This document shows, piece by piece, positions 4,967 through 32,874 of a stretch of 64,000 nt of DNA. The notes below the pieces were generated by a model. It had not been told where the DNA came from. It worked only from the letters and a program-made list of their open reading frames with translations, and did no database searches. Positions within the stretch are counted from its first letter, which is position 1; each line of letters opens with the position of its first letter. The position numbers and the translations under genes are program-made. Source of the DNA: Salinibacterium sp. (lineage in GTDB: Bacteria; Actinomycetota; Actinomycetes; Actinomycetales; Microbacteriaceae). The stretch spans positions 44,178 through 108,177 of the forward strand of contig SCSV01000286.1 in the NCBI GenBank assembly GCA_004297555.1, given 5' to 3'.

Positions 4967-5353
4967 ATGCCCAACGAACTGAAGCTCGGCGGCACGTACT
5001 GCCACTACAAGACGAAGGGTCTGTATCAGGCGCTGGCCGTGGTGCAGAACAGGCCGCTCAGACCCGGTGAGCAGGTCGTCGAGGTAGCGACGGTGAAGGA
5101 CACCAGCGACGGGCGCAACGACAAGCTCATGAAGCTGTGCCACTCGTTCACCACGGGTCACCTGTTCGTCTTGAACACCGGAGACAGCCCGACCACCCAC
5201 GATGGTTCACTCAACGACCTGATGGCTCTCTACTACTCGTTCTCCGCCAACAACCTCTTCGTGCGAGTGCTGACCGAGTTTGTGGGAGAGGTGGCTGTTG
5301 ACGGAATGACGAATCCTCGATTCGCTCCGCGCTTCGAGCTGCTGTCGCGCTAG
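4967..5353 (+). CDS. DUF1653-like small protein
   Basis: GTYCHYKTKGLYQALAVVQN motif. Confidence 0.45.
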   Translation: MPNELKLGGTYCHYKTKGLYQALAVVQNRPLRPGEQVVEVATVKDTSDGRNDKLMKLCHSFTTGHLFVLNTGDSPTTHDGSLNDLMALYYSFSANNLFVRVLTEFVGEVAVDGMTNPRFAPRFELLSR

Positions 5354-6513: not shown

Positions 6514-6562
6514 GAGGTGCAGCTCACGTTTCGTCCGTCCCTGGGGGTGTGGTTACAACGTA

Positions 6563-9321: not shown

Positions 9322-11910
9322 ATGTCGAACGGGAACGAGGCCATCTGGGCTCCGGTGATGGAGCGGATGAAGCGGAGGCTTCAAGCCGGCGGCAAGGTCA
9401 TCGCTCTTGGCGCATTCATGAGCGCAAAGAGAGAAGCGCTTCCCATCTTCTCGGAGCTGAACTTCCTTCCAGAGAAGGGCACCTTCTCCCAAGCTGAGGT
9501 TGAATCGGCGCACGCGCTCTGTACGAAGGAACGTTGTGGCTCCGCAATTCGCGCGGGGCTCGCGAAGAAGTTCATCACCGCACTCCTGAGCGAGGTTCCA
9601 CTTGCGCCGGTCACCGATGAAGAGGTCGCCGAGGGCATCAAGAAAGGCGAAGCCGACCACGAGTCGAAAGTCGCCGCTCGACGTGCTGCGCGCGCAGATG
9701 AGAAGCACGCTGACCCTTCTCGCAGCGCTGTTGCTGGCGGGAATCCTCCAGGGCCCGACGACGTGGACGAAGAGGGTGAAGAGGAAGATGGGGAAGAGGT
9801 CGGCGAAGAAGAAGACGAAGACGATGGCGAGCAGCTCGACGGCGATGAGGACACGGACCCCGGTATCCCTTCGCACGCGCACGCGCGCCGGTCTCCTCCG
9901 CGACTGAGTGCTTTCGAGAAGGTGAATCGTGGAGCCGAGCGTGCAGCCGCGCGCACACAGCGCCACCACAGTGAGGATGCGATGAGCAACGAGAACGACG
10001 ACCAGTACGAAGGCCAGCACGACGAGGACGAGGTTGACGAGCAGGAGGAACAGCCGCCTTCGAAGCGCCCGCGCGCCCGCCAGCCTCCTCCGCAGGTCAT
10101 CGTCGTGCCGCAGGCTCCTCGTCAGAAGGCGCCTCGTAACTTGAACGCCGCGCCCCGCAACCGCTTCATCAAGAACAGCGACATGGTGCGCATCAGTAAG
10201 CGCATCGCTGGCGGCAAGCGCAGCCACATCGGCGACTACACCTCCGAGGACATCGGTCCCGGCATCTCGCTGCAGCAGTTCATCAAGGAGTACATCGACG
10301 AAGAGAACCGCGAGCCGGGCCGCACCGTCTACGAGGTGGTGCCACTCAACGGCAACGGCGACGAAATCGGGAGGCCGCAGCAGTACATCATCGAGAATCA
10401 GAGCTTTGCCGAGACGAACCCGAACGACCCGGTGGGGCAGGCGCGTAGCGTGCTCGACCTCTTCGCCGACCTGAAAGAGCAGGAGAACGAGAAGCAGTCG
10501 CAGAACTCCGAGATGCTCAAGGAGGCCCAGAAGAAAGCCATCGCGGGCGGCGACATGCAGGGCCTCTTCATGTTCATGATGATGAACCAGATGATGGACA
10601 GGCCCCGCGGAGGAATCGACGAGGCCGCCATCATCGCGAAGGTGCTCGACCGCCTCGGGCCGCAGCAGCAGCCGATGATGATGCCACCGCCTTTGCCGCC
10701 GGTGCAGATGGTTCCTCCGGCGCCAGCTCCTCTGGCTGGGGCAATGGAGCAGCTGGTGCAGGCGAGCATCGCTTCGATGCTGAAGCCCGACGCCCCGCCG
10801 CCGAGCCCCATTCAGCAGCTGAAAGACATGATGGAGCTGCAGACGCTCATGCAGAAGATGAGCGGGAGCGGTACCGACATGGCCACGGTGGTGAAGTTGC
10901 TGCTCGAGAAGCAGACGCCCGTGAAGCCGCCCGAAGTGGCTGGTGTCGACAACATGATGCTCACCTTCGAGAAGCTCACCACGATGGTGAAGGCACTGGC
11001 GCCGCAAATCAACCAGGGCGGATGGGCGGGCCCCATCCAGGGAATCTTCTCGCAGCCCGAGGTGCAGAAGGCCATCGCCAACATTCTCGGAGGCGTGACT
11101 GGACAGCCGGGTGCGGTCGCTCCGCAACTTCCGCCCGGCGCTCCAGGCGCGCAAACGGTGAATGGTCAGGCCGCGAACGCGAATGGGCAGGTGCAGCCAC
11201 AGCCTCAGCAACCCCAGCCCCAGCCCACGCCGCAGATGCGTGACGCTGCTAACGCGTTCCGCATCGCTCAGACGAAAGAGGTTCGCGTCGAGCGTCTGAT
11301 GCAGCTCATCCAGGTGATGTACCTCGCTGGGTACCAGCCCGTCATCGAGCCGGTTCTCACCGCGGCGCGTGACGGCAACATCGTTCCGGCGCAGCGCTTC
11401 CTCGCCACGCTCATCGCCGACATCGACCCGTCGAAAGTCACCGTCGACCTCATCAACGCGGTGCTGCGCGTGAGCGCGGGGCTCGCGGGTGAAGAGGGCA
11501 AGAAGATGATGGCCGCACTCGATGCGTCGGAGAAGGGCGAGACTCTGAAAGTGGAGGAGAAGAAGCCTGGAACTGTTGAGACGCCGAACGCGCAAGTCGT
11601 TCCCATCGCCGCGGCTCCTGCGCACGCGAACCATGCTGCGTACATGGCCCAGGTCGCGGAGCTGGAGCGGCAGAAGGAAGGAAAGAAGGATGGGGGTATG
11701 GCGACTCAACCGAGCGTCCCGCCGGCCGCGAACCCGCACGCGCCTGAAGTCGAAGTGAAGGAGAAGAAGGTGGTGGAGGCGAAGGTGGAGGTGGCGACCG
11801 AAGCGCAGACACCGAAGGTGGAAGCGCAGACGCCGTCGCAGACACCGCCGGCCGAGGTCATCAACTTCAACGAGAAGCCCGAGAAGCCAGCGGAGCAGAC
11901 CGCGCGCTGA
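9322..11910 (+). CDS. Large acidic, Pro/Gln-rich structural or scaffold-like protein (862 aa)
   Basis: Long ORF with DEEGEEEDGEEVGEEEDEDDGEQ and PQPQQPQPQP tracts. Confidence 0.6.
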   Translation: MSNGNEAIWAPVMERMKRRLQAGGKVIALGAFMSAKREALPIFSELNFLPEKGTFSQAEVESAHALCTKERCGSAIRAGLAKKFITALLSEVPLAPVTDEEVAEGIKKGEADHESKVAARRAARADEKHADPSRSAVAGGNPPGPDDVDEEGEEEDGEEVGEEEDEDDGEQLDGDEDTDPGIPSHAHARRSPPRLSAFEKVNRGAERAAARTQRHHSEDAMSNENDDQYEGQHDEDEVDEQEEQPPSKRPRARQPPPQVIVVPQAPRQKAPRNLNAAPRNRFIKNSDMVRISKRIAGGKRSHIGDYTSEDIGPGISLQQFIKEYIDEENREPGRTVYEVVPLNGNGDEIGRPQQYIIENQSFAETNPNDPVGQARSVLDLFADLKEQENEKQSQNSEMLKEAQKKAIAGGDMQGLFMFMMMNQMMDRPRGGIDEAAIIAKVLDRLGPQQQPMMMPPPLPPVQMVPPAPAPLAGAMEQLVQASIASMLKPDAPPPSPIQQLKDMMELQTLMQKMSGSGTDMATVVKLLLEKQTPVKPPEVAGVDNMMLTFEKLTTMVKALAPQINQGGWAGPIQGIFSQPEVQKAIANILGGVTGQPGAVAPQLPPGAPGAQTVNGQAANANGQVQPQPQQPQPQPTPQMRDAANAFRIAQTKEVRVERLMQLIQVMYLAGYQPVIEPVLTAARDGNIVPAQRFLATLIADIDPSKVTVDLINAVLRVSAGLAGEEGKKMMAALDASEKGETLKVEEKKPGTVETPNAQVVPIAAAPAHANHAAYMAQVAELERQKEGKKDGGMATQPSVPPAANPHAPEVEVKEKKVVEAKVEVATEAQTPKVEAQTPSQTPPAEVINFNEKPEKPAEQTAR

Positions 11911-14575: not shown

Positions 14576-15046
14576 GTGGACGAGCTGCCCAAGTGCCCAG
14601 GTGACGCTCCCCCGGTGGTGCGCCTCTCGCTGCGTCATGAGAAGTGCCCGCGCAAGGGCGTCGTTCGGCACTTGCGCACGCCAAACGACATCCACTCGTA
14701 CTTGAAGACCGAGTACGGATGCGAAGCGCAAGAGTGGGCGGTCGTCATTGGCCTGGGTTCCAACAACGCCATCCTCGGCATTCACGAAGTCGCCATTGGC
14801 GGGCTCGACTCGACGGTCGTAGACCCGCGAGTAGTGTTCGCCGGACTCCTTCTGATGGGCGCTGCAGCGTTTGTCTTCTGTCACAACCATCCAAGCGGCA
14901 GTACACAGCCGAGTACGTTGGACGTCACGATGACTCGCCAGCTCAAGGACGCCGGCAAGATTTTGGGAATCCGCATGGTCGACCACATCATCGTGAGCGG
15001 AACCGGCTACACCTCTTTCCTTGCAGAGGGAATGTTTCCATCGTGA
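14576..15046 (+). CDS. RadC/JAB-like domain protein
   Basis: FCHNHPSGSTQPSTLDVTMTRQL...GIRMVDHIIV. Confidence 0.8.
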   Translation: MDELPKCPGDAPPVVRLSLRHEKCPRKGVVRHLRTPNDIHSYLKTEYGCEAQEWAVVIGLGSNNAILGIHEVAIGGLDSTVVDPRVVFAGLLLMGAAAFVFCHNHPSGSTQPSTLDVTMTRQLKDAGKILGIRMVDHIIVSGTGYTSFLAEGMFPS

Positions 15047-16779
15047 CCCTCGACCAAGCCATCGCTTTGCTGCTCGGCGCCGGCTTCGGTGCGCGTGCAC
15101 TGGATGGGAGAAAAAACGCTCTCGCCCGCGTCGGTTACGCGCTGGTCGGCTACGACCTGCTCAAGACCGGAATCACCGGCCAGGGTTCCATCTTTGGTGC
15201 GCAGTCGAGCGGACTGGCGAAGGTGTCATCGTCCAGGGCGAAGTTGAAGTTCGAGGAGCGTCGGGTCCGAACCATCGCAGAGCGTGTTGCGTATGTGCAC
15301 GAGCAGATGGTGCTGGGCACCCGCGACCCTCAGGTCTACGCACTCGCTCGAGAAGTTGTCGCGCGAAAGTGCGGTGCAGAGTTCTGCATTCCGGAGAAGG
15401 ACCACAAGGGCGAGATGGCCGCGCTCTTCAACGAAGCTCGAGCCCGTTGCCGATACACGCTCGACCCTGTCGACTACGATGCGTTTCAGACGCCGGGCAA
15501 GACGCTGCAGCTCGCCAGCGGCGACTGCTTCGTGAAGGGCACGGTGGTACTCAAGAAAGGGCACGAGTTGGTACCGGTCGAGTCTCTCCGTCTCGGAGAC
15601 GAAATCTGGGGGCTCAATCGCTGGTCGAAGGTGATGAACACTTGGGAGAAGGGAGTGCTCCCGACGTGGAACATCCAGCTCAACAATGGCTCCGCGATGC
15701 GCTTGACTCCAGACCACAAGGTTTGGGTGTGGAAGTGCAAGGATGAGCACAAGGATGCGCGGTACGGAGGACAAGAGTGTTCGTGTCGCCTTGACAACCG
15801 AGAGTTGGTTCGCATCCGCGTGAGGGAACTTAAGTGTGGCATGGTGTTGCCGCAGCCGGAACGCATCCCGTTCGGTTCCGAAAAGATGGACCCAACTCGC
15901 GCGTACGTTGAGGGGCTCTACGTTTCTGACGGCTCATCGGCACACTCGAATACGTTCGAGATTGCCGGCCAAGACGGTTGTCCAAAAGAGGCGCAGAAGA
16001 AAGAAGTCGAGCGCATCTGCGCGGTGCTCGGAATTCCGACGAGGTGGTATCGGAAGTACATCACGGTGAAAGACAAAATCTGGACGCAGCGGATGAAGAC
16101 GATGGGTACGCGTGCGCCCAACAAGCGCGCCCTTTCCATCAACCTCGAAGAGGGCGGAGCACTCAATTTACTTCGCGGTATCATGGCCGATAGCGGGAAG
16201 AACAGCCAAGGTTTCGGCTCTACCTTCACCACTACTTCTCGCCAGCTTTGGCTTCAGACGCGCGTGCTACTCAAGATGGCTGGCAAAACAGCAAGCGAGC
16301 GCTACATCGTCGACCATGGCGGCCTCGGAGAGAATCCGATTTGGAGGTTGGGCATCCGAGGTGGCGGCCCGGCCGGCAATGCGTCCAAGCTCCTGCGCGT
16401 GAAGGACGTTGTTCGGGACAATGTCGAGAAGCCGTGCTTCGACATCGAGACGGATGACCACTACGTGTGGCTCCCAGAGGCCGACTGGACCACGAGCCAG
16501 TGCGACGATGAAGTGAGCTTGCTTGGCGCGATGCTGCGCAGTGTCGGCATTCCCGTGCGCAGTCGCATCTACCAGACGCAGGGCAACACGACTTGGAACC
16601 ACATCAACCTGATGGCCCAGGACCCAGGTACCGGCACGTGGCACTCTCTCGACCTCGCCGCGGTGGGTAAGCCGCCCGGCTGGGAGGTCCCGAAGCAGTA
16701 CATCATCAAGCAGCGTGACTTCGACGTTCTCGAGAAGGAAGTACCGCGTTTGTCTGCGGCGCTGAATGCGGTACCCTGA
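15043..16779 (+). CDS. Transglutaminase-like protein interrupted by an intein
   Basis: GTG start overlapping previous TGA; extein LQLASGD|CDDEVSLLGAMLRSVGIPVRSRIYQ...WNHINL. Confidence 0.75.
   Translation: MTLDQAIALLLGAGFGARALDGRKNALARVGYALVGYDLLKTGITGQGSIFGAQSSGLAKVSSSRAKLKFEERRVRTIAERVAYVHEQMVLGTRDPQVYALAREVVARKCGAEFCIPEKDHKGEMAALFNEARARCRYTLDPVDYDAFQTPGKTLQLASGDCFVKGTVVLKKGHELVPVESLRLGDEIWGLNRWSKVMNTWEKGVLPTWNIQLNNGSAMRLTPDHKVWVWKCKDEHKDARYGGQECSCRLDNRELVRIRVRELKCGMVLPQPERIPFGSEKMDPTRAYVEGLYVSDGSSAHSNTFEIAGQDGCPKEAQKKEVERICAVLGIPTRWYRKYITVKDKIWTQRMKTMGTRAPNKRALSINLEEGGALNLLRGIMADSGKNSQGFGSTFTTTSRQLWLQTRVLLKMAGKTASERYIVDHGGLGENPIWRLGIRGGGPAGNASKLLRVKDVVRDNVEKPCFDIETDDHYVWLPEADWTTSQCDDEVSLLGAMLRSVGIPVRSRIYQTQGNTTWNHINLMAQDPGTGTWHSLDLAAVGKPPGWEVPKQYIIKQRDFDVLEKEVPRLSAALNAVP
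15526..16500 (+). mobile_element. Intein 1 (325 aa) with LAGLIDADG endonuclease
   Basis: CFVKGTVVLKKGHELVPVESLRLGDEIW block A; LTPDHKVWV block B; YVEGLYVSDGS and LLRGIMADSG dodecapeptides; CFDIETDDHYVWLPEADWTTSQ|C. Confidence 0.85.
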
Positions 16780-16791
16780 AAGGACCTGCAC

Positions 16792-17289
16792 ATGGCACTC
16801 CTCGACACGAACAATCCACCGGCCGAAGTGCTCGCCGCCAACAGCGAGTTGATGATGGGAGAGGTGCGCAAGTGGCTCAATGACCTTGCGTGCGGCGACT
16901 TGAAAAACACTCCGGCGCTGCTGAACCCGTTGCTGCTGGGGTTGATTGCTCTGCGCCTCGGTCAGCTCGTCAACAACAAGGCGCAGGGGTCCAACTACTA
17001 CCGCATCTCGCCCTTTCAGCTCACCAAGGAGGGTCAGAAAATCGTCGAGCGCCAGCAAGACGGGCTGGTGCGCACTGTTCTGCTGTGGGTCGACAAGGCC
17101 GGCGCCGGCCCCACACCGTACATTCGGGTCGGTGTGAACAAGATGAACATGGTGGCCGGGCAGCAGGGCAGCGGTGGCATCCAGGCGGACGCCGGCAAGC
17201 AGCACGAGCTGGGCAACGTTCGACCTGAGGTGGAGCTGTGGGCGGCTTCCAGCGTCGACATCTGGACGTACGTCATCGAGTACGCGTGA
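16792..17289 (+). CDS. Hypothetical virion-module protein
   Basis: AGGACCTGCACATG start context; 165 aa ORF. Confidence 0.55.
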   Translation: MALLDTNNPPAEVLAANSELMMGEVRKWLNDLACGDLKNTPALLNPLLLGLIALRLGQLVNNKAQGSNYYRISPFQLTKEGQKIVERQQDGLVRTVLLWVDKAGAGPTPYIRVGVNKMNMVAGQQGSGGIQADAGKQHELGNVRPEVELWAASSVDIWTYVIEYA

Positions 17290-17299
17290 GGAGCCACTG

Positions 17300-19675
17300 A
17301 TGGCCGCGGTCACGAACAACATCGAGTCGCACAATGCGCGGGGCATCGAGCGCTCGGACGTGGTGGTCGACAGTGGAAATCTCCACGGTCTCGGCGCGGC
17401 CGCGGTGAATCAGGCGTCGCTCGCGAAGAGCCACACCATGCTGACGAAGTTCGTCTGGTTCCGCTCGATGCTCGAACGCGAGCTGCAGCTGCAGAGCTAC
17501 AAGCTGGTGAAGGAGGACGGCCTGTACCGGTTCGTCCTCACGCCTGGGCTGCGGAAGGAAGCCGTGCCGTGGCAGCGCTTCGCCGCCGAGCGGTACACGA
17601 AGGCGCTGCTCTGGGGAACGGACAACGCGAAGATGCAGTGCCCCACGTTCGCGATTCCGGCCGGCGGCGTGATGGTCGGCGGCACGTGCCCCGGTGCGGA
17701 CGCCGGTCAGACGGTCACGCCGGTGAACGCCCGCGTGGCGCGTCTCGAAGGCGCTGCAGACGGCTGGCACCTCCGCACCGAAGCACCGGGCACCGGCGTG
17801 AAGCCGCTGGTGAAGGAAGGGCTTGCCGTCTGCCAGAGCTGCGTGACCGCCGATGCGCTCGTTCTCGTCCGCAATCGCGGACTCGTCCCCATTGGAGAGC
17901 TGGTCAACGCCGGCATGGTGGAAGTGTGGAGCGGAAAGTCGTGGCAGAAGACGCATGCCGTGTTCAACGGCGTTCTGCCGACGTTCCTGGTGACACTGTC
18001 CGATGGGCGCACGATTCGCGCAACTGGAGACCACAACTTCATTCTCGCTGACAACTCTCGCGTTCGGGCCGATGAGCTTCAAGAGGGAGAAGCACTCCCG
18101 TGGGAACTTCCGGAGCCCGATGCATCGAACTTCGACGTGACGGGACGGCTGCCGCTCGTTCACCTTGAAGAGCAGCACTTCAACGAGAAGCGAGGCCAGC
18201 TCCCGACACAGTGGTCTCGTGAGTTGGGCCTCTGGCTCGGCTACATCATCGGGGACGGATGGTTCAACGGAAGCGTCAAGCATCCGACCATCGGCATTTG
18301 CGCGGCGGAGCAAGACCGCGGTGACCTCGACCACATCAACGCATTTGTGTCGAGGTGGACAGGTTCGGAAGCCGAGGTGAACGTCAGTGAGGTCGAACGT
18401 TCGAATGACCTCGTCACGTGCGAGACGCCACAGTCGATGGCGAAGGTTTTCTGGCGTCAGAAGTCGGCTGTGGCACTCGCGTTGGGGCTTGGGCTCAAGA
18501 AAGCCAAGGCGGACACGAGAACGCCGGAGTCCATCTGGTCGGCGCCGATGGATGCGGTTTCGGGCTATCTCTCCGGCCTTTTCTCCACTGATGGGAGCGT
18601 CGGCTTTCGAGGGCACGGAGTTGAGATTTCGTTCGCTTCAGTTTCGCGCACGCTCGTCGATGAGGTTCGACAGCTGCTCATCATGTTCGGCATCAAGTCG
18701 AGCTTGACGAAGTACAAGAGCAATGAGGAGCGCGGCTACCTTCCGTTATGGAAGGTCTCGCTGACTTGCCACGAGAGCATCATGCGCTTTCGGAAGCACG
18801 TCGGATTCTTCAATGAGCGCAAGTCGAAAAAGCTGGAAGCGTTCATCATCAGTCCGAAGTTCTCTCACCGTGAGCGCAAGACGAATGCGCACGTCGAGAG
18901 TGTCGTTCCTACCGGTAAACTCGAGCCAGTATTCGACCTCGTCAACGTCGGGCCTGAGCACCAGTTCACAGCCAACGGCATCAGCATTTCAAATTGCTAC
19001 GCGACCGAGGGCTCGTTCAGCCGGTCGAGTGTTCAAACGGATGAACTCGTACGCTTCTGGTGGATTCGCTCGCAGCTGCAGAACAAGAACGAGGCGCTAC
19101 TGGAGCAGGTCTTCGTCGACTCCATTCTCTCGCTGCCGTTCAAGCACGACCGCCACGGCATCAAGCCCATCCGCCTGCACGACTCGGGTGACTTCTTCTC
19201 ACAGAAGTACGCCGAGATGTGGCTGCGCGTTGCTGACGAGCTGGCGGTGCGGATGCCCGAGGTCGTCATCTGGGCTCCGACGCGCACGTGGGCACAGGGC
19301 GGGTGGACGGAGTTCTGGAACCAGCGGCTGCCGCGCTTGAAGAGCGTTCAGTTGGGAAGACGCCCCAACCTGATGGTGCGCCCCAGCGCGTACAACTTCG
19401 GAGACGCCGCGCCGGAAGCGATGGCGCAGGGGAACTCGCGCGGCTCGACGTCCCTCTACGCGGTGCACGCGCGCGTGCCGGCGGAGCTGAAGAACAGGAC
19501 GGACGCCACGAAGGTCGGCCTCACGCGAGGGCTCGAGCCACGCGCCGACTTCAACTGTCAGGTGTACGGAGCGGAGACGGCGTCGTGCACCGCTTCGCTC
19601 GCGCCGGATGGAAAGCGCGGCTGCCGCGCGTGCTGGGTTCACCCTGAGTTGAGGATTAATTATTCTGCTCACTAG
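17300..19675 (+). CDS. Gp88-like (mycobacteriophage gene product 88 family) protein interrupted by an intein
   Basis: GGTCPGADAG...KEGLAVCQS|CYATEG...IRLHDSGDFFSQKYAEMW. Confidence 0.7.
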   Translation: MAAVTNNIESHNARGIERSDVVVDSGNLHGLGAAAVNQASLAKSHTMLTKFVWFRSMLERELQLQSYKLVKEDGLYRFVLTPGLRKEAVPWQRFAAERYTKALLWGTDNAKMQCPTFAIPAGGVMVGGTCPGADAGQTVTPVNARVARLEGAADGWHLRTEAPGTGVKPLVKEGLAVCQSCVTADALVLVRNRGLVPIGELVNAGMVEVWSGKSWQKTHAVFNGVLPTFLVTLSDGRTIRATGDHNFILADNSRVRADELQEGEALPWELPEPDASNFDVTGRLPLVHLEEQHFNEKRGQLPTQWSRELGLWLGYIIGDGWFNGSVKHPTIGICAAEQDRGDLDHINAFVSRWTGSEAEVNVSEVERSNDLVTCETPQSMAKVFWRQKSAVALALGLGLKKAKADTRTPESIWSAPMDAVSGYLSGLFSTDGSVGFRGHGVEISFASVSRTLVDEVRQLLIMFGIKSSLTKYKSNEERGYLPLWKVSLTCHESIMRFRKHVGFFNERKSKKLEAFIISPKFSHRERKTNAHVESVVPTGKLEPVFDLVNVGPEHQFTANGISISNCYATEGSFSRSSVQTDELVRFWWIRSQLQNKNEALLEQVFVDSILSLPFKHDRHGIKPIRLHDSGDFFSQKYAEMWLRVADELAVRMPEVVIWAPTRTWAQGGWTEFWNQRLPRLKSVQLGRRPNLMVRPSAYNFGDAAPEAMAQGNSRGSTSLYAVHARVPAELKNRTDATKVGLTRGLEPRADFNCQVYGAETASCTASLAPDGKRGCRACWVHPELRINYSAH
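17840..18994 (+). mobile_element. Intein 2 (385 aa) with LAGLIDADG endonuclease
   Basis: CVTADALVLVRNRGLVPIGELV; ATGDHNFIL; LGLWLGYIIGDGWFNGS and YLSGLFSTDGSV; VFDLVNVGPEHQFTANGISISN|C. Confidence 0.9.
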
Positions 19676-19705: not shown

Positions 19706-20200
19706 ATGCTCAAGAAGCACGAAGACGTGTCGTGGGTCGACGCTGCTCGATTCTGGGAGCGCGTCGAAAAAACTGATGGATGTTGGCTGTGGAAGGGCAA
19801 AGGACGTCGTGGGTCATCAACTGGTCCTCAGTACGGATGCTTTACTTTCCGTGGCGAACGGCGAGCCGAGACTTCCAACCGAGCCGCGTGGCGTGTCCAG
19901 AAAGGACCAATTCCGAAGGGGAAGTGCGTTCTTCACAAGTGTGACAACTCCATCTGCGTTCGTGGTTCTCACCTGTTTCTCGGAACGCGGACGGAAAACT
20001 CCGCCGACATGGTCAAGAAGGGACGACAGGCGAAGGGTACTGACAAGCCGAATGCGAAGCTCGACGAGCAACGGGTGCGCGACTTCCGGCGTCGACACAA
20101 GAACGGTGAATCGCCGACTGTCCTCGCGAAGGAAGCTGGGATGCACATCCGTTCGTTCTGGTCCGTTCTCCGTCGGGAGACGTGGGCATGGGTGATTTAA
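19706..20200 (+). CDS. HNH endonuclease (homing-type)
   Basis: CWLWKGKG...YGCFTFRG...CVLHKCDNSICVRGSHLFLGTRTEN. Confidence 0.85.
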   Translation: MLKKHEDVSWVDAARFWERVEKTDGCWLWKGKGRRGSSTGPQYGCFTFRGERRAETSNRAAWRVQKGPIPKGKCVLHKCDNSICVRGSHLFLGTRTENSADMVKKGRQAKGTDKPNAKLDEQRVRDFRRRHKNGESPTVLAKEAGMHIRSFWSVLRRETWAWVI

Positions 20201-21099
20201 AGCGAACGTTCGGCGACTACGAGATTCGCGCGTACCGTCGCGAGAGTGACAGCTACATCTCCGTCAGCGCGAACTGGTTGAAGACCCCGCTCGGACAGGA
20301 CGACCGCATCGGCTCTGCGGAATTCTGGGAGAGAGAAGACGACCTGTTCCCCGAGCAGGTTTGGGTGCTCGAAGCGCACCAGCGCAAGGGTATTGCCACG
20401 AAGATGTACGAGTTGGCGTCGGAGATTTCTGGTGGAAAGCCCGTTTCGAACAGTGACCGTCAAAGTTCTCAGGGTTGGGCGTTTCGCAATAGGCTGGGAG
20501 CCGTGTCCGCGACCATCATCGACCAGGGCTCGTTCTCTCACGCTCTACTCGCCAAGGCGGGCAGCGAAGCCGTGACTTCGTCCCTGAACATCGAGGGCAC
20601 CGCGTCCACGCAGCCAGTCGGCTTCGAGGCGTACGAAACTGCGCCGTGCAAGCTGTTCAAGACTCCCGGCCAGAAAGTCGCCCCAGAGCACAAACGCCCT
20701 CCGTGTCAGGTGCAGCTCACCGCGACCGAAGACGGCACGTCGATGGCGGTGCGTCTCTGCGACGACGGCAAGGGAACCGTGGCGCCGGTGAAGAGCGTTG
20801 ACGAGGCGAAGCAGGTCATCGACCGCTACTGCAAATGCGCGCGCAACAAGCCGGCGAGCACCCGCGTGAAGTGCGCACGCAAGACGGTGGGGTTGAGTGG
20901 TGACCGCGGCGAGCTGAGCACGTCCGTGATGGAGGTCTACCCGCCGGAGCGTCTCGCGCCCACGATGGTGAAGAAGTACGGGAACAAGGAAGCTGCCGCA
21001 GCGGCCGCCCAACAGTCTGCGATGAACTACCCATCTGGTGATGTGCACCGCATCTACTGGGAGAGCGTGCACCAGTTGATTCGTCGCGGGGTACACTGA
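20188..21099 (+). CDS. Protein with GNAT-like acetyltransferase motif
   Basis: VWVLEAHQRKGIATKMYELAS. Confidence 0.5.
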   Translation: MGDLKRTFGDYEIRAYRRESDSYISVSANWLKTPLGQDDRIGSAEFWEREDDLFPEQVWVLEAHQRKGIATKMYELASEISGGKPVSNSDRQSSQGWAFRNRLGAVSATIIDQGSFSHALLAKAGSEAVTSSLNIEGTASTQPVGFEAYETAPCKLFKTPGQKVAPEHKRPPCQVQLTATEDGTSMAVRLCDDGKGTVAPVKSVDEAKQVIDRYCKCARNKPASTRVKCARKTVGLSGDRGELSTSVMEVYPPERLAPTMVKKYGNKEAAAAAAQQSAMNYPSGDVHRIYWESVHQLIRRGVH

Positions 21100-21611
21100 T
21101 GAAAGGTGCCGGCATCATCATCGCGGGCGCGGGTGCAGCGCTTATCGGCTACGCGCTCTTCTCCCCGTTCCGTGTCGTGATGGGTTTCAGGAAGGGAGTT
21201 CCATTCCCGGTGACTGTGCGCAGAGTCGGGCGTCTGTGGAACGGTGACTGGGCATGGATGGAGCTGAAGGCAGCCGATGCCTTTGAAGGTCTGCGTCGTT
21301 CAGCGTACGCGGCTGGTCTCGACTTGCCACTCTCAGCGGCGTTTCGCAGCTGGCAGGAGCAAGCAGCGATGAAGGCAAAGCGATTGCTCTTCGGTGGTCC
21401 TCCGACCGCAGACCCGGGGTACTCGAACCACCAAGAAGGCACCACGGTCGACATCGACATCGGCGTGAGAGACGCGATGACGAACTACCGGTCGAGTCGC
21501 GTCTGGCACTGGCTTCGAGAGAACGCTCGCTCGTATGGATTCGTCGACGACGTCTACCAGCCTGGGAATCCGAAGTACGAACCGTGGCACTGGAGATATT
21601 ACGGAGAATGA
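21099..21611 (+). CDS. Membrane-anchored M15-like (D-Ala-D-Ala) peptidase
   Basis: N-terminal TM; AAFRSWQEQ, SNHQEGTTVDIDI, EPWHWRYYG. Confidence 0.8.
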   Translation: MKGAGIIIAGAGAALIGYALFSPFRVVMGFRKGVPFPVTVRRVGRLWNGDWAWMELKAADAFEGLRRSAYAAGLDLPLSAAFRSWQEQAAMKAKRLLFGGPPTADPGYSNHQEGTTVDIDIGVRDAMTNYRSSRVWHWLRENARSYGFVDDVYQPGNPKYEPWHWRYYGE

Positions 21612-21625
21612 CGTAGAAACTTGGA

Positions 21626-22132
21626 GTGGCAGGTTTAGGTCAGAGCGAACGTCTTCATCGGGCCATCAAGGTTCTGCGTCGTCGGTCGGACCTTGTAGAG
21701 CAGTGGGAGGCAAGATTATTTTTCGATGGGCGATGTTGGAGGTACCCAGCAAAAGGGTACCCAAACGTCAACGTGAACGGAGAGACGTTCAAGCTATCGA
21801 GAATTCTTTACGCGCTTCGGCACGGAGTCCCGAGAGATGGTTTGGACGTATGTCACAAATGCGACCGTGGGGATAAAGGATGCATGACCGACGACCACAT
21901 GTTTTTGGGCACGAGACAAGAAAACAATCGGGACCGTGACGTGAAGAACCGGCAAGTTCGTGGTGATGCACATGGGATGAGCCGGTTGTCCGCAGCTCAG
22001 GTCGTGGAGATTAGAAAGGTACGGGAACAAGACCCAAGCATCTCTGGGGCAGAGCTGGGAAGAAGATTTGGTATCTGTCCACAAGCCGCGAACGCAATTC
22101 TTCGTCGCGTGAGGTGGTCACACGTTGCCTGA
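21626..22132 (+). CDS. HNH endonuclease (homing-type)
   Basis: LDVCHKCDRGDKGCMTDDHMFLGTRQENNRD. Confidence 0.8.
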   Translation: MAGLGQSERLHRAIKVLRRRSDLVEQWEARLFFDGRCWRYPAKGYPNVNVNGETFKLSRILYALRHGVPRDGLDVCHKCDRGDKGCMTDDHMFLGTRQENNRDRDVKNRQVRGDAHGMSRLSAAQVVEIRKVREQDPSISGAELGRRFGICPQAANAILRRVRWSHVA

Positions 22133-23013: not shown

Positions 23014-23298
23014 GTGCGCGTGGTGAACGTGGTGAGACCAACCGACGGAATGGAGTTGCAGCTGCGGCTCTGCACTGGCGGGCTCGATTGCGTGCTGCCG
23101 CCGTTCTCGACTCCGTCGCGCGCGTTCAGCGGAGTCGGTACATTCATCACCGAGTGGGAAGAGAGCGCTCAGCGGGCCATGCAAGCGGAGCCGCTGTACT
23201 TCCGCAACTGGGACCGCGTGAAGACGACACTGCTCGTGGTCGTCAGCGGCGTACTCGCGTGGCAGCTCGTGAAGAAGCGGAAGACACTCTTCGATTGA
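23014..23298 (+). CDS. Tail-anchored small membrane protein
   Basis: C-terminal TTLLVVVSGVLAWQLVKKRKTLFD. Confidence 0.55.
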   Translation: MRVVNVVRPTDGMELQLRLCTGGLDCVLPPFSTPSRAFSGVGTFITEWEESAQRAMQAEPLYFRNWDRVKTTLLVVVSGVLAWQLVKKRKTLFD

Positions 23299-23914
23299 GA
23301 GCCTGCTCTTTTCGAGTTGCCCACTTCACATTGCCCGGTTCGTAGTTTCCGTCGTTGTTGATGCGCTCGATGGTGAGGTGAGGAGCTGGGCGCCGGCCAA
23401 CGTCGGAGAGGAAATCGTTGAACGAATTGAGCCAGCGGCGGCAAACCTTGATGCCGCGTCCACCGTAGTTCTCCCAGCTATCGGATTTCGGATTGGTACA
23501 GCGCTGCTTCATAGCTGTCCAGATGGCGTACTCCGGCATCTTTCGTACGCGCTTCCACTGATTGAGCCACGCTTGCCGTGCACAACCACAACTGGTCGTT
23601 CGTCCACCGAGCAGATTTGAGGGGTGGACCTTTCCCGTGCTGCCACAGTCGCAGACGCACATGATTTTGCCGTCGGGGCAAACGAATCTTGTCCACAACC
23701 GGCCAAACCGACGTCCCAAAATTGGGACCTTCTTCTCCAGTGGGGTAGAAATGTCCTTGCCAGACCACTGGCGGAGGTAGTGACCGTTGCACAGGCCTTT
23801 GGCTCTGACCGGCTTCGAACACTTCGGTGAGCAGGGGGCGGAACAGGTCACCATGTTTCTACCTATATCACCTTTCTGGTATACCGTGAAGAGCATCGCA
23901 CTCGTCGGGGTCAC
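23243..23914 (-). CDS. Zn-ribbon plus HNH-like homing endonuclease
   Basis: CVCDCGSTGKVHPSNLLGGRTTSCGC; YGGRGIKVCRRW...TIERINNDGNYEPGNVKWAT. Confidence 0.8.
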   Translation of the reverse strand: MTPTSAMLFTVYQKGDIGRNMVTCSAPCSPKCSKPVRAKGLCNGHYLRQWSGKDISTPLEKKVPILGRRFGRLWTRFVCPDGKIMCVCDCGSTGKVHPSNLLGGRTTSCGCARQAWLNQWKRVRKMPEYAIWTAMKQRCTNPKSDSWENYGGRGIKVCRRWLNSFNDFLSDVGRRPAPHLTIERINNDGNYEPGNVKWATRKEQALNRRVSSASSRAATRVRR

Positions 23915-24395: not shown

Positions 24396-24941
24396 CTACT
24401 TCTCGTCTTTGGGTGGCCACAACCCGACCATCTGCAGCTGCGTGCTCACCGCGTTCTCGATGAGTGTGATGAGCGTCTTTCCGGTACCGCGCGATTGTTT
24501 CGTGAGAGCGGCGTGCATCTTCTCCGGCAGTCGAACGGTGAATGAAACGGTCTTCGGCTTCTTGGGTTTTGCCGGGAGCTGGTCCTTGTTCCACCGCTGT
24601 TGGTAGTGCCTTCGGCACATGCCGCGTGCGAGGGCGCGTTCTTCGCACGACTTCCCGTCTGCGTCCTTCATGAAGCAATACAGGAGGTCATTCGGTGCAG
24701 GTCCGAGCGGCATTTTTCCATTCTCCTTGTTTCGAGCTGTCCGCTGTGCGCGCCATTCGTGGCGAAGACAGCCGCAGCTCTTCGTGAATCCGCCGAGTAG
24801 AGAGCCGATGGCGATGTACTTCTTGGTACCGCAATCGCACCGACATAGCATCTTGTGTCCGCGGCGAGGTCCAATGCCTATCAGTCGGCCTATTCGCTTC
24901 CCGAGGAGCGTTGGCCACTGTGCAGGGTAGGGCATCAGCAC
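24396..24941 (-). CDS. Zn-ribbon domain fused to ribbon-helix-helix-like C-terminus
   Basis: CRCDCGTKKYIAIGSLLGGFTKSCGC; KTVSFTVRLPEKMHAALTKQSRGTGKTLITLIENAV. Confidence 0.65.
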   Translation of the reverse strand: MLMPYPAQWPTLLGKRIGRLIGIGPRRGHKMLCRCDCGTKKYIAIGSLLGGFTKSCGCLRHEWRAQRTARNKENGKMPLGPAPNDLLYCFMKDADGKSCEERALARGMCRRHYQQRWNKDQLPAKPKKPKTVSFTVRLPEKMHAALTKQSRGTGKTLITLIENAVSTQLQMVGLWPPKDEK

Positions 24942-25057: not shown

Positions 25058-25636
25058 ATGAGCACCAACCTTCAGCACTTCGGACTCGGCAACGTGGCGG
25101 CGATGGTCGGCCTCCAGCCTTCCAACCTCAAGCGATACGCCGCGCTCGCAGCCGGTGGAGTCGGTGGCGTGATGGGCAGCGACTTCGTGCAGTCGCAGCT
25201 GCTCCCTCGCGTCGGCGTGCGTGTCCCGGTGAAGTGGGCTCCGCTCTTCACGGCACTCTTCGGCGTCATGGGCGGCACGTTCGCGACGCGGAAGCTCCAC
25301 ATGCCGAACATCGGCACCGGCATGTTGGTCGGCGGGCTCGCGGTCGGAGCTTCGGCGGCCATCTCGATGCTGCTCGCCCCCGCAGTCGTGGCGACCACCG
25401 ACTCGGGTCAGCCGGTCGCCGGTCTCGGCTTCGGTCGCGTCTTCTCGCGCGGCGTGCGCGGCCTCGGGCTCGGACGCGTCCCGGGCAACCCCATGCTGTT
25501 CGGTGCCGGCACCCCGAACATGGCCGGCGCGCGCATGTTCAACGGCGCGACCGTCGCCATCGAGCAACCCGGACTGCTCCAGGGCGCGACCGTCGCCATC
25601 GAGCCCTCCAACCGCTTCGCCGCCGCGCTGACGTAA
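25058..25636 (+). CDS. Gly/Ala-rich membrane-active virion candidate
   Basis: Multiple hydrophobic segments; duplicated GATVAIEQPGLLQGATVAIEPSN. Confidence 0.5.
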   Translation: MSTNLQHFGLGNVAAMVGLQPSNLKRYAALAAGGVGGVMGSDFVQSQLLPRVGVRVPVKWAPLFTALFGVMGGTFATRKLHMPNIGTGMLVGGLAVGASAAISMLLAPAVVATTDSGQPVAGLGFGRVFSRGVRGLGLGRVPGNPMLFGAGTPNMAGARMFNGATVAIEQPGLLQGATVAIEPSNRFAAALT

Positions 25637-25721: not shown

Positions 25722-26351
25722 ATGAACCAGATTGCGATTCCCACGAACAAGCCGGGTGAGGTCTACATCCCCGCGCTGGGCAAGACGTTCCAGCAAATCG
25801 AGCTGCGAGAGGACGATGTCTACGACACCATCCTCATCACGGCCGCGTCGCAGGCGAACCTCACCTACACGTTCTGGCGCGACGTGCAGAACAAGGACCT
25901 GCAGGACTGCAACCTCCCCAACCCGAGCCGCATCCAGTCGGGCGACGAGGTCGCCATCTTCCGCATCGGCGTGCACCCGCGCGAGGCCGTCGGCAACACG
26001 CTGCCGGTGTTCAACGACTACCGCAAGGTCGTCGCGGCGGCGCACCTCGAGGTCATCTTCAACCGCCGGCCCATCACCAGCGGGCCCATCATCAAGTACC
26101 CCTCGGGTCTCGGCATCGGTGGGTTCTCGGACGAGACCGGCGCCACCGCGGTCAGCATCGGTGTGCCCTCGGTCGCGGCGGCCCCGACCCTGTTCGTCCC
26201 GCAGCAGCTGAAGGACGACGACGACGTGAAGAGCAAGCTCCGCTTCCTCGCGGCGGACTGGATTTCGGGGTACGTGGCGCCGGTGACGGCGAACACGGTG
26301 CGCATGACCCTGTTCCTCCACGGCGTGATGAAGAACCCGCTCGGCAAGTAG
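25722..26351 (+). CDS. Candidate capsid protein 1 (209 aa)
   Basis: No TM; position at head of membrane-protein block; beta-rich appearance; no family assignment possible by eye. Confidence 0.4.
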   Translation: MNQIAIPTNKPGEVYIPALGKTFQQIELREDDVYDTILITAASQANLTYTFWRDVQNKDLQDCNLPNPSRIQSGDEVAIFRIGVHPREAVGNTLPVFNDYRKVVAAAHLEVIFNRRPITSGPIIKYPSGLGIGGFSDETGATAVSIGVPSVAAAPTLFVPQQLKDDDDVKSKLRFLAADWISGYVAPVTANTVRMTLFLHGVMKNPLGK

Positions 26352-26485
26352 TCCAGTCGGGAGTGCGCCGTCGGAGCAGAACACCGACGGCGCACCTCCC
26401 AAGCAGCACGCAGCACAGCGCGTAAGCGCAAACACTTTTCCGGGGTCGTCCCCACGGGGCCTGCCCCACAGCACCGGGAGCCTCG

Positions 26486-27067
26486 ATGCCGCCGAACCAA
26501 AACCCCTACTGCCCCGCGCCGGGGGAGCCGGCTCCTCCGGCAGGCCGTATCGCCTCCTTCCTCCAGGAGGCGCTCGACCTGTCGCCGGCCATCGTTCGCG
26601 GTGTCGGCGTCACGATGAGCGCGGCGCTCACCACGGCCACCACGACAGGCAGCTCGAAGTACAAGGTGCCGGCCGACCAGGAGCTGGTGGTGTTCGCACT
26701 GAGCGGCTTTCTCAAGTTCGCCGCGCTCAGCTCTGAGCCCACGGCCATCCTCGGGTGGCTGAACCTCGACCCGTCGGAGCGCTGGTTCGTGAAAAGCCAG
26801 AACTGCAACGTCGGGCTCAAGAACACCGACCGCTCACTCGATGTCTTCGATGGCGATGGCGTGGTTCCCATGTCTGCCATCACCCCTCCGGTGGGTACGC
26901 CCATGTACTGGCACCCTGAGGCACCGAACATCTTCAACGCGGGTCACACACTCCAGGCGACGTTCACCCTCGGAGACACGACGGCCGCTGTCGTGGGCAC
27001 GGCCGGCAACAGCACGACGTACGGGCTGCTGCTGACAGGCAACCTGATTCCGAACCGGAACCGCTGA
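26486..27067 (+). CDS. Candidate capsid protein 2 (193 aa, beta-rich)
   Basis: Alternating beta-like segments YKVPADQELVVFALSGFLKF...HTLQATFTLGD; follows candidate 1. Confidence 0.4.
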   Translation: MPPNQNPYCPAPGEPAPPAGRIASFLQEALDLSPAIVRGVGVTMSAALTTATTTGSSKYKVPADQELVVFALSGFLKFAALSSEPTAILGWLNLDPSERWFVKSQNCNVGLKNTDRSLDVFDGDGVVPMSAITPPVGTPMYWHPEAPNIFNAGHTLQATFTLGDTTAAVVGTAGNSTTYGLLLTGNLIPNRNR

Positions 27068-27078
27068 GAGGAGCACGT

Positions 27079-27762
27079 GTGGCCAACGGGCTCTCCATCA
27101 ACGGTGTCGTCCAGCCCGTAGGCTTCGGGCTGGGCAGTGTCGTGACGTGGTCGAGCGGCGGCGTGCCCAACACGTACATGAGCGTGTTTGCCACGCGAAC
27201 CGGATGGAAGTTCGATTCTGGCAACGCGGCGCTCAAGTCGCTATGCCAGGGAGAGCTGATTCCGCGCGTGGGGAGCCCGAGCGCGTTTGCCCCGGCGAAC
27301 ACCTGCGGCATCGATGGCTCGATGGCGTGCAACTACGGCTCACCGGAGAGCGCGCTCAGTGGGCTGGGTGGGTTGGGAGCTGCGTTCTGCACCCCGCTCA
27401 ACGATGCTCTTCGAGAGTTGCAGAACATCAAGGTGACGTCGTACGACCGCTTGAGCAGTGCTTCGCAGGCATCGCTCGATGCGGTACTCGAAGACCTCGG
27501 TGGCTTTGCGGTGTACGTGCCGTTCCTCGGCAATGAATGTGAGCGTCACACCGCCGAGGTTCGAGCGATGGTGCAGAGTCTACGTGGTGAGCTGGGTGCC
27601 GCTGCACCACCCCCGCTGCGCCCGGGCGTCGACGCGGGCGGTGAGCCGAGCGGTATGCAGACCTGGATGAAGGTCGCCATCGGCATCGGTATCGGTGCCG
27701 TTGCACTTGGTGCGCTCGGTTATTCGGCAGGGAACCTCGCGCGGCTTTTCAGGGGGCGCTGA
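27079..27762 (+). CDS. Tail-anchored virion-module protein
   Basis: C-terminal KVAIGIGIGAVALGALGYSAGNLARLFRGR. Confidence 0.6.
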   Translation: MANGLSINGVVQPVGFGLGSVVTWSSGGVPNTYMSVFATRTGWKFDSGNAALKSLCQGELIPRVGSPSAFAPANTCGIDGSMACNYGSPESALSGLGGLGAAFCTPLNDALRELQNIKVTSYDRLSSASQASLDAVLEDLGGFAVYVPFLGNECERHTAEVRAMVQSLRGELGAAAPPPLRPGVDAGGEPSGMQTWMKVAIGIGIGAVALGALGYSAGNLARLFRGR

Positions 27763-29856: not shown

Positions 29857-30600
29857 ATGATGTTCCCCAACTTCAACCCGTACACGTTCGCGCGGCTCTC
29901 TCCGCGCCAGCGGATGATGCAGCAGCTCGCGGGTCGGGGCTACGGCTCCTTCGGACTCGCCGAAGTGGCACAGGTCGGCCTCGGCTCAGTCTCGGTGCTT
30001 CGAGGCACGAGTCACCTGGGCTTCAACCCGGACGCGGTCATGAGCCAGATGCCGAGCGGCTCCAGTGTCGAGCCGTTGGCTGTCGACCAGATGGCTTACC
30101 TGTCTCCTCCTCCGGCGCCGGAGCCCAGCGGGACGATGCTGGTGGACAACGCATGCACAGGAGTGACGTGCCCGGCTGACCAGCAGTGCGACCCCGGTAC
30201 CGGACAGTGCGTGCCGAGTCGGGCTGTCGTCGAGGTGAGCGCGTTCAACCCGACTCCCGCGCGTTCTCCTTTTCCCACGTCGGTCGCAACCGAAGAGACC
30301 GCGCCCGAAGTGTCCACGCCGGACGTCTCAGCGGGGCCGAGCTACTCTCCCGGCACTTCGGTCAGCCCGGATGACGTCAGCCTCTACGAGCGCGGCGGCA
30401 ATGAGCCGTTTGTGTACACCGGCGGCAGCGGCGGAAGTGGAGAAGGTTCTGCGCCGCCTGCCGTGAAGCCGGCGACCGTGGCCCAACAGGCAGCTGCAGT
30501 TCTCAGCGAACGTCCCTCCACCGGTATTCCGTGGTGGGGCTACGCACTCGGTGCTGCAGCGGCCGGCTTCGCGCTCTACAAGCTCGGGGGACGCAAGTGA
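29857..30600 (+). CDS. Tail-anchored protein with Myxococcota-type Cys-rich module
   Basis: DNACTGVTCPADQQCDPGTGQCVPS; C-terminal IPWWGYALGAAAAGFALYKLGGRK. Confidence 0.65.
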   Translation: MMFPNFNPYTFARLSPRQRMMQQLAGRGYGSFGLAEVAQVGLGSVSVLRGTSHLGFNPDAVMSQMPSGSSVEPLAVDQMAYLSPPPAPEPSGTMLVDNACTGVTCPADQQCDPGTGQCVPSRAVVEVSAFNPTPARSPFPTSVATEETAPEVSTPDVSAGPSYSPGTSVSPDDVSLYERGGNEPFVYTGGSGGSGEGSAPPAVKPATVAQQAAAVLSERPSTGIPWWGYALGAAAAGFALYKLGGRK

Positions 30601-30893
30601 GGTATGTCGTGTCCGGCGACGGATTCGGGTTCACCCCATCCAACGTGATGGAGTTCATCCCGAAGCAGAGCACCGGCGCTGCGCTCGTCTCGGACACCTC
30701 GAGTCTCCCGGTGCTGCAGACCATCGAGGCCTTTCGCGCCAAGAACCCCATTCGGACCACGGTGCGGCAGGAACAGCAGCAGGAGCAAATGGGCGAGCCC
30801 AGCGACAACAAGCTCATCACGTTCGCATTGTGGGGGGCGGCAATCCTCGGTGGCGGTGGGCTTCTGCTGTACGCTTTGCTGAAGAGAAAGTGA
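30597..30893 (+). CDS. Tail-anchored virion-module protein
   Basis: C-terminal KLITFALWGAAILGGGGLLLYALLKRK; GTGA overlap start. Confidence 0.6.
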   Translation: MRYVVSGDGFGFTPSNVMEFIPKQSTGAALVSDTSSLPVLQTIEAFRAKNPIRTTVRQEQQQEQMGEPSDNKLITFALWGAAILGGGGLLLYALLKRK

Positions 30894-30900
30894 ACGCCGC

Positions 30901-31887
30901 ATGAACCTCTACGACCGGTTGAAGATGTCCCCGATGTCGGCCCGCTCGATGGCCGCCTCGGTTCTCGGCGTCAGCGCCCCGGGTGCAATCCCGCCGGCTG
31001 TGCCGGACGTCCAGTCGCTCTTTTCTCGCGGTTCGCTCGCGCGCAGCGTCGTCAACGCCTCGACGGACATGGACTACGTCCTCGGGCAATCCGGCGTTGG
31101 GCTGAATGGAGCGTCCGGCGCGTTCGGTACACGCTTCGGTGGGCTCGGGTTCCTTTCCGGTGGTCAGATTCCGGTGTTCGCCAGCTACACGATGAGCGAC
31201 TGCGCGCTGTCGAACTTCTACGACACGGCGAACTACAGCTGGCTCAAGGCCCACGGCACTGACGGCGGCTCTTCGTTCTTCGTGAACATCGACTACACCC
31301 CGCCGGACGGCTCGCTCAAGGAGAGGGCCACCAAGGGGTGGACCTACCTGAAGAACGAAGCCGACAGCGGCAACACTCACGCCCGTGCGGTGTTCGACCA
31401 GCTCGACAGCTCGATGAAGGTGTACATGGCCCAGGTCAGTGCGCTCGCGGATGCGCACGACGACCGACTGGGTTGCGGTCACGCGATGGCGCGCGGCTGG
31501 TCCGCTCAGCAGCAGCTCTGGGAAGGCTTCTCCGCCATCGTGAGCCTGATGAAGCAGTTCGCGAACGCTCCCGCTGGGGTGCCGCCTCTGATGGTGGAAG
31601 ATGGCCCCGCGACGGGGGGCTCCAACATGGACGCAGCCGACTCGCGCAGCAACGTCGACCCGCTGACGCAGTCGTACCTCACGCGCGCCAATCGCCTGCA
31701 GCAGGAAGAGGATGCTGCCGCGCAGCAGCTCATCCTGGACAAGCAACAGGAGCAGATGCAGCAGTTGCTCAAGCAACAGCAGTCCGCGGCGACAGCCGGA
31801 GGGGGTCTCCCGTCGTGGGCGCTTCCCGTTGGGGTCCTCGCCGCGGCTGGTGTGGCGGCGTTCGTGATTCTCCGCAAGAAGAGGTAA
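30901..31887 (+). CDS. Tail-anchored virion-module protein (328 aa)
   Basis: C-terminal WALPVGVLAAAGVAAFVILRKKR. Confidence 0.65.
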   Translation: MNLYDRLKMSPMSARSMAASVLGVSAPGAIPPAVPDVQSLFSRGSLARSVVNASTDMDYVLGQSGVGLNGASGAFGTRFGGLGFLSGGQIPVFASYTMSDCALSNFYDTANYSWLKAHGTDGGSSFFVNIDYTPPDGSLKERATKGWTYLKNEADSGNTHARAVFDQLDSSMKVYMAQVSALADAHDDRLGCGHAMARGWSAQQQLWEGFSAIVSLMKQFANAPAGVPPLMVEDGPATGGSNMDAADSRSNVDPLTQSYLTRANRLQQEEDAAAQQLILDKQQEQMQQLLKQQQSAATAGGGLPSWALPVGVLAAAGVAAFVILRKKR

Positions 31888-31897: not shown

Positions 31898-32545
31898 ATG
31901 TTCGGCCTTTCGCACCTGCAGCTCTCTCACACCGCGACCGCGATGGGCGGAGCCGTGCCGTTCCAGGGTGGCGGCGTGGGAGAGTTGCGCGAAGGCACGA
32001 TGGGGAGCGCGGTGAAGGAGCTGCAGAGCAAGCTCAACGTGCTGCAGTACGGACCGGTGGCCGTGGACGGGACTTTCGGCGCGAGCACCAAGCAGGCGCT
32101 GATGAACTTCCAGGCGACCGAGGGCATCGGCGGCACCCCGCCGTCTGGTGTTCTCGATGCCGAGACCGAGGCGCGGCTCAACCAGCGCATCTTGAACGTG
32201 AGCACCGGTGCAGGTGCAGGGGTGAATCCGCAGACCGGGTTGCCTGTGCAACCGACTCCCGCGCGACCCTGGTGGCAGACCGCACTGATGGTGGCCGGTG
32301 GTGTGGCCATCGCAGGTGGCGTCATCTATCTGTTGACGAGTGACGATTCCAAAGGCGGTTACAAGCGTGCCCTCAGCTCGCGCACTGTCGAGCACGACCC
32401 GAACGTGGCGACGAGGTTCAAGCGCGAGGTGAAGGCACACGGGAGCACGTTGCGCGGAGCGCACCGCGCGAAGTGTGACCGGGCGCCTTCCGAAAGCGCA
32501 TTCGATGAGGGCGAAGCGCTCTCTGCACCCGAGGTGACGTCATGA
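31898..32545 (+). CDS. Peptidoglycan-binding domain protein with TM segment
   Basis: VKELQSKLNVLQYGPVAVDGTFGASTKQALMNFQ; TALMVAGGVAIAGGVIYLL. Confidence 0.75.
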   Translation: MFGLSHLQLSHTATAMGGAVPFQGGGVGELREGTMGSAVKELQSKLNVLQYGPVAVDGTFGASTKQALMNFQATEGIGGTPPSGVLDAETEARLNQRILNVSTGAGAGVNPQTGLPVQPTPARPWWQTALMVAGGVAIAGGVIYLLTSDDSKGGYKRALSSRTVEHDPNVATRFKREVKAHGSTLRGAHRAKCDRAPSESAFDEGEALSAPEVTS

Positions 32546-32874
32546 TGGGCTACGTGCCACAGATTCTTCCCCAGTCGTACATCGAGACGCGCAGCTTCAG
32601 TGGGCTCGGTGACACGTACTCTCCGCCACCGCTGGTGCAGGCCAATGCTTCGACCGGAGGCTCCGGCGGCGGTGGGTTCCTGAACTTCGCCAGCAACCTC
32701 ATCGGGGGTGCGTTCGCGGCCGGAGCGCAGGGCTCGATGGAGTTCAACACGGCGGCCGCGCAGCTGGACGCTCAGCGCCTCGCCAACGAGCGCTCTCGCC
32801 GGTGGGCGGCGTTCGGGGCGGTAGCTGTTGGAATCGCCGGGCTGGCCGGAGTGGTGTACCTTCTGAGGAAGTGA
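32542..32874 (+). CDS. Tail-anchored virion-module protein
   Basis: C-terminal AAFGAVAVGIAGLAGVVYLLRK. Confidence 0.6.
   Translation: MMGYVPQILPQSYIETRSFSGLGDTYSPPPLVQANASTGGSGGGGFLNFASNLIGGAFAAGAQGSMEFNTAAAQLDAQRLANERSRRWAAFGAVAVGIAGLAGVVYLLRK

Follow-up and report, generated by a model that had tools for sequence, protein, structure and literature searches.

Adjacent orphan genes ahead of a membrane-anchored block as candidate shell genes of a circular 108-kb phage-like genome

Two adjacent orphan genes and the hairpin between them

The DNA studied here, referred to as the window, is a stretch of 64,000 nucleotides that makes up the right-hand part of contig C62 (SCSV01000286.1), from a source bin of 2.25 Mb in 425 contigs. 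Our subject is a pair of neighbouring open reading frames (ORFs) encoding proteins of 209 and 193 amino acids (aa), which a sequence-only reading had put forward as a possible new viral capsid pair, by comparison with sphaerolipoviruses, where neighbouring genes encode two small single-jelly-roll capsid proteins. Both ORFs lie where that reading placed them, 134 bp apart with a strong hairpin in between. Positions below are those of the window unless marked C62.

25722-26351, + strand: 209-aa orphan protein, candidate major capsid protein; no transmembrane (TM) segment, codon bias, no homolog found
26359-26400, + strand: hairpin with a 16-pair stem, one bulge and a 9-nt loop, starting a few bases past the stop codon of the 209-aa gene
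26486-27067, + strand: 193-aa orphan, candidate for a second capsid protein, a penton or a minor capsid protein; no TM segment, no homolog found

In such GC-rich DNA ORF length is weak evidence of coding, with approximately 4-6 ORFs this long expected per 9 kb of Markov-shuffled sequence. GC content at the three codon positions nevertheless gave a strong coding signal for both the 209-aa (0.60/0.41/0.95) and the 193-aa gene (0.60/0.52/0.85). Among the 112 C62 genes of at least 100 aa, the 209-aa gene ranked first in codon score per residue and first in GC at third positions (GC3; 0.95). As a yardstick, the same measures were applied to the control genomes P23-77, SSIP-1, PRD1, Delta, PM2 and SH1. 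By GC3 the capsid pair ranked 1 and 3 in P23-77 and 1 and 2 in SSIP-1, and P3 ranked 1 in PRD1; the capsid gene of the tailed control phage Delta was first by codon score. The SSIP-1 pair is gp45 and gp46, which we take to be its capsid proteins, the record marking both merely as structural. With capsid genes at or near the top in several controls, first place on both codon measures thus fits a major virion protein.

The hairpin had a folding z-score of -3.75 (141-nt region) and holds the sole intergenic perfect stem of at least 11 pairs in the 108-kb contig, with none found in five shuffles. It lacks a T-run, so a role in transcript processing or stabilisation is as likely as one in termination. 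Judged by gene content, the 209-aa protein is probably the major capsid protein.

A block of membrane-anchored proteins follows the two genes

Neither protein has a predicted TM segment and, as the sequence-only reading had noted, they precede a run of mostly C-terminally anchored proteins, which reaches position 33666. The genes of this block are listed below, together with the membrane-protein gene directly upstream of the pair and two genes further upstream that may belong to the virion.

16792-17289, + strand: 165-aa orphan soluble protein, possible further structural protein (codon-score rank 7 of 112)
21099-21611, + strand: VanY D-Ala-D-Ala carboxypeptidase with an N-terminal TM segment (residue 4), candidate virion entry enzyme (Pfam VanY E 4.7e-19, PHROG match)
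25058-25636, + strand: membrane protein, 192 aa, TM from residue 94, directly upstream of the 209-aa gene
27079-27762, + strand: C-terminally anchored protein, 227 aa
27762-28733, + strand: C-terminally anchored protein, 323 aa
28752-29258, + strand: C-terminally anchored protein, 168 aa
29857-30600, + strand: 247-aa protein whose anchor-like C-terminus is weaker and falls below the TM threshold
30555-30893, + strand: C-terminally anchored protein, 112 aa if the start is 30555
30901-31887, + strand: C-terminally anchored protein, 328 aa
31898-32545, + strand: PG_binding_1 peptidoglycan-binding protein, TM from residue 129 (Pfam E 1.2e-11)
32542-32874, + strand: C-terminally anchored protein, 110 aa
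32886-33275, + strand: C-terminally anchored protein, 129 aa
33295-33666, + strand: C-terminally anchored protein, 123 aa

TM proteins were concentrated between 11.9 and 33.7 kb of the window, where they account for 15 of 32 genes; outside this interval the figure is 8 of 109 (Fisher p = 1.5e-6). The same interval contains all of the C-terminal anchors, found in 10 of 125 C62 proteins, and most of these end in Lys/Arg. Such anchors occurred in 5/29 proteins of SSIP-1, 3/26 of SH1 and 2/26 of P23-77, and in 0/44 from the first half of the tailed phage Delta. Counting TM proteins in the run downstream of the capsid genes gave 10/14 for C62, compared with 12/14 in PRD1, 11/16 in P23-77, 4/10 in PM2 and 3/12 in SH1. 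VanY and the peptidoglycan-binding protein, both TM proteins, are as expected of a virus that would carry wall-opening tools in a virion membrane.

The 165-aa protein had no Pfam match above the cut-off and no PHROG match. HNH-endonuclease-like genes dot the structural region on both strands (19706-20200, 21626-22132, 23243-23914 and 24396-24941); the HNH families come from pooled scans, with exact gene assignment by eye.

A candidate packaging ATPase lies just left of the window

A DUF87 protein of 276 aa and FtsK-HerA type is encoded just left of the window (C62 42226-43056). It is 23% identical to the SH1 ATPase over 210 aa (E 6e-8) and 24% identical to that of P23-77 over 202 aa (E 2e-7), and it matches the PM2 ATPase at E 5e-5, the E-values being those of a 10-sequence database. 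A TGGR(K/E)xG stretch is common to the protein and the SH1 and P23-77 ATPases. The alignment runs along most of its length, as would suit the FtsK-HerA-type packaging ATPase of Halopanivirales, with a cellular HerA-like role still conceivable. Published models of the SH1 and HHIV-2 ATPases were themselves built on a HerA template (PMC5332951). Aligned with its SH1 and P23-77 counterparts, the ATPase retrieved four viral and six genome loci, and the 209-aa protein was absent from those loci that were searched. A second, 597-aa HerA ATPase was dropped as the packaging motor because the IMG/VR contig that carries a homolog of it also has a terminase-like ORF.

Between the replication genes and the ATPase gene lies a gene for a small GroES-co-chaperonin-like protein (C62 39628-39894), which could aid capsid folding.

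C62 is a closed molecule with phage-like replication genes

The 108,177-bp contig begins and ends with the same 100 bases. It follows from this exact end repeat that C62 measures 108,077 bp as a closed or circularly permuted molecule. The remainder of the contig carries nucleotide genes and phage-like replication genes: PolA, ThyX, a deoxynucleoside monophosphate kinase, uracil-DNA glycosylase, Sak4, a primase-like DUF3987 protein, SNF2 and other helicases. PolA has an intein-like insert, recognised by eye, and its C-terminal part is about 27% identical to phage DNA polymerases. Glycosyltransferases, an integrase and HNH enzymes are also encoded. Tetranucleotide profiles correlated at r = 0.98 between the two halves of C62 and at r = 0.76 between C62 and the pooled bin contigs; with this deviation, and with two different rpoA genes in the bin, a host assignment from the bin was dropped.

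Further features of the contig were noted. A sugar and glycosyltransferase cluster with an epimerase, a C-methyltransferase and glycosyltransferases flanks the circle junction (5350-8490 and 62581-63879; C62 955-7432) and perhaps serves virion or host surface glycosylation. Intein-like or LAGLIDADG inserts, partly assigned by eye, occur at 14644-16779 and 17174-19675 and at C62 18227-21781, 22819-26268 and 27119-28792, in transglutaminase-like, GP88-like, PolA, helicase and uracil-DNA glycosylase genes. An orphan gene of 102 aa left of the window (C62 7694-8002) has a GC3 of 0.93, the third highest for genes with 100 aa or more.

Folds and relatives of the two proteins

Single-sequence AlphaFold models of the 209-aa and 193-aa proteins were uninterpretable, with a mean predicted local distance difference test (pLDDT) score of 29.7 and 32.0, respectively, making a structure search with them meaningless. 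Neither protein matched a Pfam or PHROG family. When C62 proteins were compared with SSIP-1 gp45/gp46 by hhalign, the 209-aa protein ranked 31st of 112, and a motif that it seemingly has in common with gp45/gp46 failed a decoy test.

No relative of the 209-aa protein was detected in IMG/VR, phage records, GTDB genomes (peptide pattern), plasmids or two genome sets assembled around the bin (398 and 296 genomes). Two weak matches were inspected (L002 and L008) and attributed to chance, and the remaining matches scored no better. For the 193-aa protein, IMG/VR held no relative and phage records gave one chance-level match. Scans with the ATPase, an 862-aa protein, PolA and the UvrD helicase likewise found no close relatives in IMG/VR or phage records. 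Pattern-based scans reach close homologs only, being blind by our estimate below roughly 60-70% identity, so absence from them is weak evidence and the orphan status of both proteins is provisional.

One capsid protein or two

The two genes differ in codon use. While the 209-aa gene leads on both measures, the 193-aa gene ranked 35 of 112 in codon score and 17 of 112 in GC3. The 193-aa protein is the weaker capsid partner, put forward on its position and size. By sequence, the two proteins have no similarity to each other.

These differences bear on whether C62 might instead be a tailless membrane phage with the 209-aa protein as its single major capsid protein, the 193-aa protein then being a penton, spike base or minor protein and no VP16/VP17-like pair existing. 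The split in codon rank (1 against 35) favours such an arrangement, since SSIP-1 gp45 and gp46 rank together; those two are also paralogous (26% identity, E 3e-12), whereas the C62 proteins are dissimilar. Dissimilarity does not preclude a pair, as SH1 VP7/VP4 and P23-77 VP16/VP17 likewise differ in size and are not obvious paralogs, and the adjacency and similar size of the 209-aa and 193-aa genes fit one. We regard the single-protein arrangement as rather unlikely, though it is the strongest of the alternatives.

The proposal of a new capsid pair therefore fared differently in its two parts. A capsid role gained indirect support from the TM-rich block, the SH1/P23-77-like ATPase, the lack of canonical tail and terminase genes described below, and the codon bias and hairpin of the 209-aa gene. 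A pairing as two single-jelly-roll proteins did not: codon bias singles out the 209-aa gene and not its neighbour, the structure models are uninterpretable, the proteins are dissimilar and neither matches a known capsid.

A tailed phage or a plasmid is less probable

The 117 called proteins with 90 aa or more were scanned with PHROG, and Pfam scans were run alongside; neither gave a canonical terminase, portal, HK97 capsid or tape measure, the hallmarks of Caudoviricetes. This agrees with the sequence-only reading, which had recognised no pattern of a tailed-phage capsid, portal or protease near the pair. Three PHROG labels suggested otherwise and were rejected: 'tape measure' fell on the VanY domain, 'portal' on a NUDIX domain and 'terminase large subunit' (phrog_2666) on two HerA-type ATPases. 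In the same collection the SH1, PM2 and PRD1 packaging ATPases bear the phrog_2666 label as well.

A very divergent tailed phage would have head and tail genes beyond the reach of Pfam and PHROG, and the 209-aa and 193-aa proteins would belong to the head or the tail tube. In favour are a replication module of a type that Caudoviricetes also have, the nearest listed relatives of UvrD and PolA, which come from tailed phages, and the terminase-like ORF beside the homolog of the 597-aa HerA protein. Against this stand the profile scans, with no canonical terminase, portal or tape measure, and the block of anchored proteins, which is without counterpart in the tailed control Delta. Moreover, no TM segment is predicted in the sole large unassigned ORF (862 aa, 9322-11910), which reads as rich in Gln, Pro and Met. 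We consider a tailed phage improbable. For the 862-aa protein, encoded by the largest unassigned gene, no relative was found in Pfam, PHROG or phages.

A plasmid-like or other non-virion element, in which the membrane proteins serve another purpose, would suit the integrase, the circular molecule and the HerA/TraG-like ATPases, but Pfam scans showed no relaxase or type IV secretion family, and the phage nucleotide and replication genes, the TM-bearing VanY and peptidoglycan-binding proteins and the 209-aa gene's codon bias speak for a virus, making this very improbable.

A proposed tailless phage with an internal membrane

By context, the 209-aa and 193-aa orphans are the best shell candidates on a complete circular phage-like genome. 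What the sequence shows is the set of genes, the closed circle, the clustered TM segments, the similarity of the ATPase, the codon bias and the hairpin; from these we infer the virion type and every role named here. On balance we favour C62 as the complete genome of a tailless phage with a shell around an internal membrane and the 209-aa protein as the major capsid protein. The 193-aa protein would be a second capsid or vertex protein, and the TM-anchored proteins would sit in an internal membrane between shell and DNA. At entry, VanY and the peptidoglycan-binding protein would open the cell wall. The 276-aa FtsK-HerA-type ATPase would serve to pump DNA through the membrane vesicle, and the hairpin may raise the dosage of the 209-aa gene through transcript stabilisation or termination.

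Several observations weigh against a tailless membrane phage. Neither protein has a usable fold (pLDDT around 30), and neither significantly matches VP16, VP17, VP7, VP4, PM2 P2 or PRD1 P3, nor SSIP-1 gp45/gp46 by blastp, hidden Markov model or hhalign; no relatives turned up for testing conservation. The 276-aa ATPase resembles cellular HerA helicases too, and its gene lies far from the capsid candidates. Codon use of the 193-aa gene is not extreme, and in PM2 and SH1 the capsid genes are not the most biased by GC3. Finally, the largest isolate found for comparison has 44 kb (PMC6260650), far below 108 kb.

The tailless membrane phages compared here have genomes of 10-44 kb. To our knowledge, related shells around far larger genomes occur only in viruses of eukaryotes. 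If our interpretation is true, a 108-kb bacterial example would mean that in bacteria, too, this body plan can reach a large size. The escape of such viruses from surveys would be explained as well, since none of the C62 proteins tried had close relatives in IMG/VR or phage records and the two capsid candidates are themselves orphans. The fuller proposal, a tailless internal-membrane phage of a 100-kb class, over twice as large as any comparable isolate found, with a new capsid family and a large replication module of tailed-phage type, is put forward more tentatively, at slightly less than even confidence.

Comparison with known tailless membrane phages

SSIP-1 is the nearest in kind, being a circular double-stranded DNA phage, tailless and with an internal membrane; for C62 these traits are read from genes. 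The SSIP-1 genome is 44 kbp and its capsid has T=49, marked 'single jelly roll?' (PMC6260650). Both genomes have two adjacent proteins of capsid size (gp45, 210 aa, and gp46, 211 aa, in SSIP-1), a virion cluster rich in C-terminally anchored proteins, an integrase and a capsid gene or candidate at the top in GC3. They differ in size (44 kbp against 108 kb), in the paralogy of gp45 and gp46 and in capsid sequences, which have no similarity. C62 thus resembles SSIP-1 in anatomy yet cannot be filed with SSIP-1-like phages, because capsid similarity was tested and none was found.

Within Halopanivirales, P23-77 (Matshushitaviridae) also has a small ATPase, two adjacent major capsid genes followed by membrane proteins, and cell-wall enzymes, but its genome is 17 kb, its ATPase gene lies close upstream of VP16 and its capsid proteins are dissimilar to the C62 candidates. 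The same dissimilarity holds for Haloarcula virus SH1 (Sphaerolipoviridae), a virus with an archaeal host and a linear 31-kb genome, in which VP7 (185 aa) and VP4 (232 aa) are adjacent and membrane and structural genes follow. At 108,077 bp, C62 lies outside the range of the order (17 kb for P23-77, 28-31 kb for the SH1 group). Its adjacent 209-aa and 193-aa genes fit the size of a Halopanivirales capsid pair, in which each of the two neighbouring major capsid proteins is an upright single jelly roll, albeit with no sequence match and uninterpretable models, and the adjoining TM-anchored block may correspond to the internal-membrane feature of the order.

PM2 and PRD1 (Tectiliviricetes) have one double-jelly-roll capsid protein and genomes of 10-15 kb. 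Like C62, they follow the capsid gene with small TM proteins and membrane-linked lytic enzymes. The C62 order, capsid candidates and then membrane proteins, is that of P23-77, SH1, PM2 and PRD1 alike.
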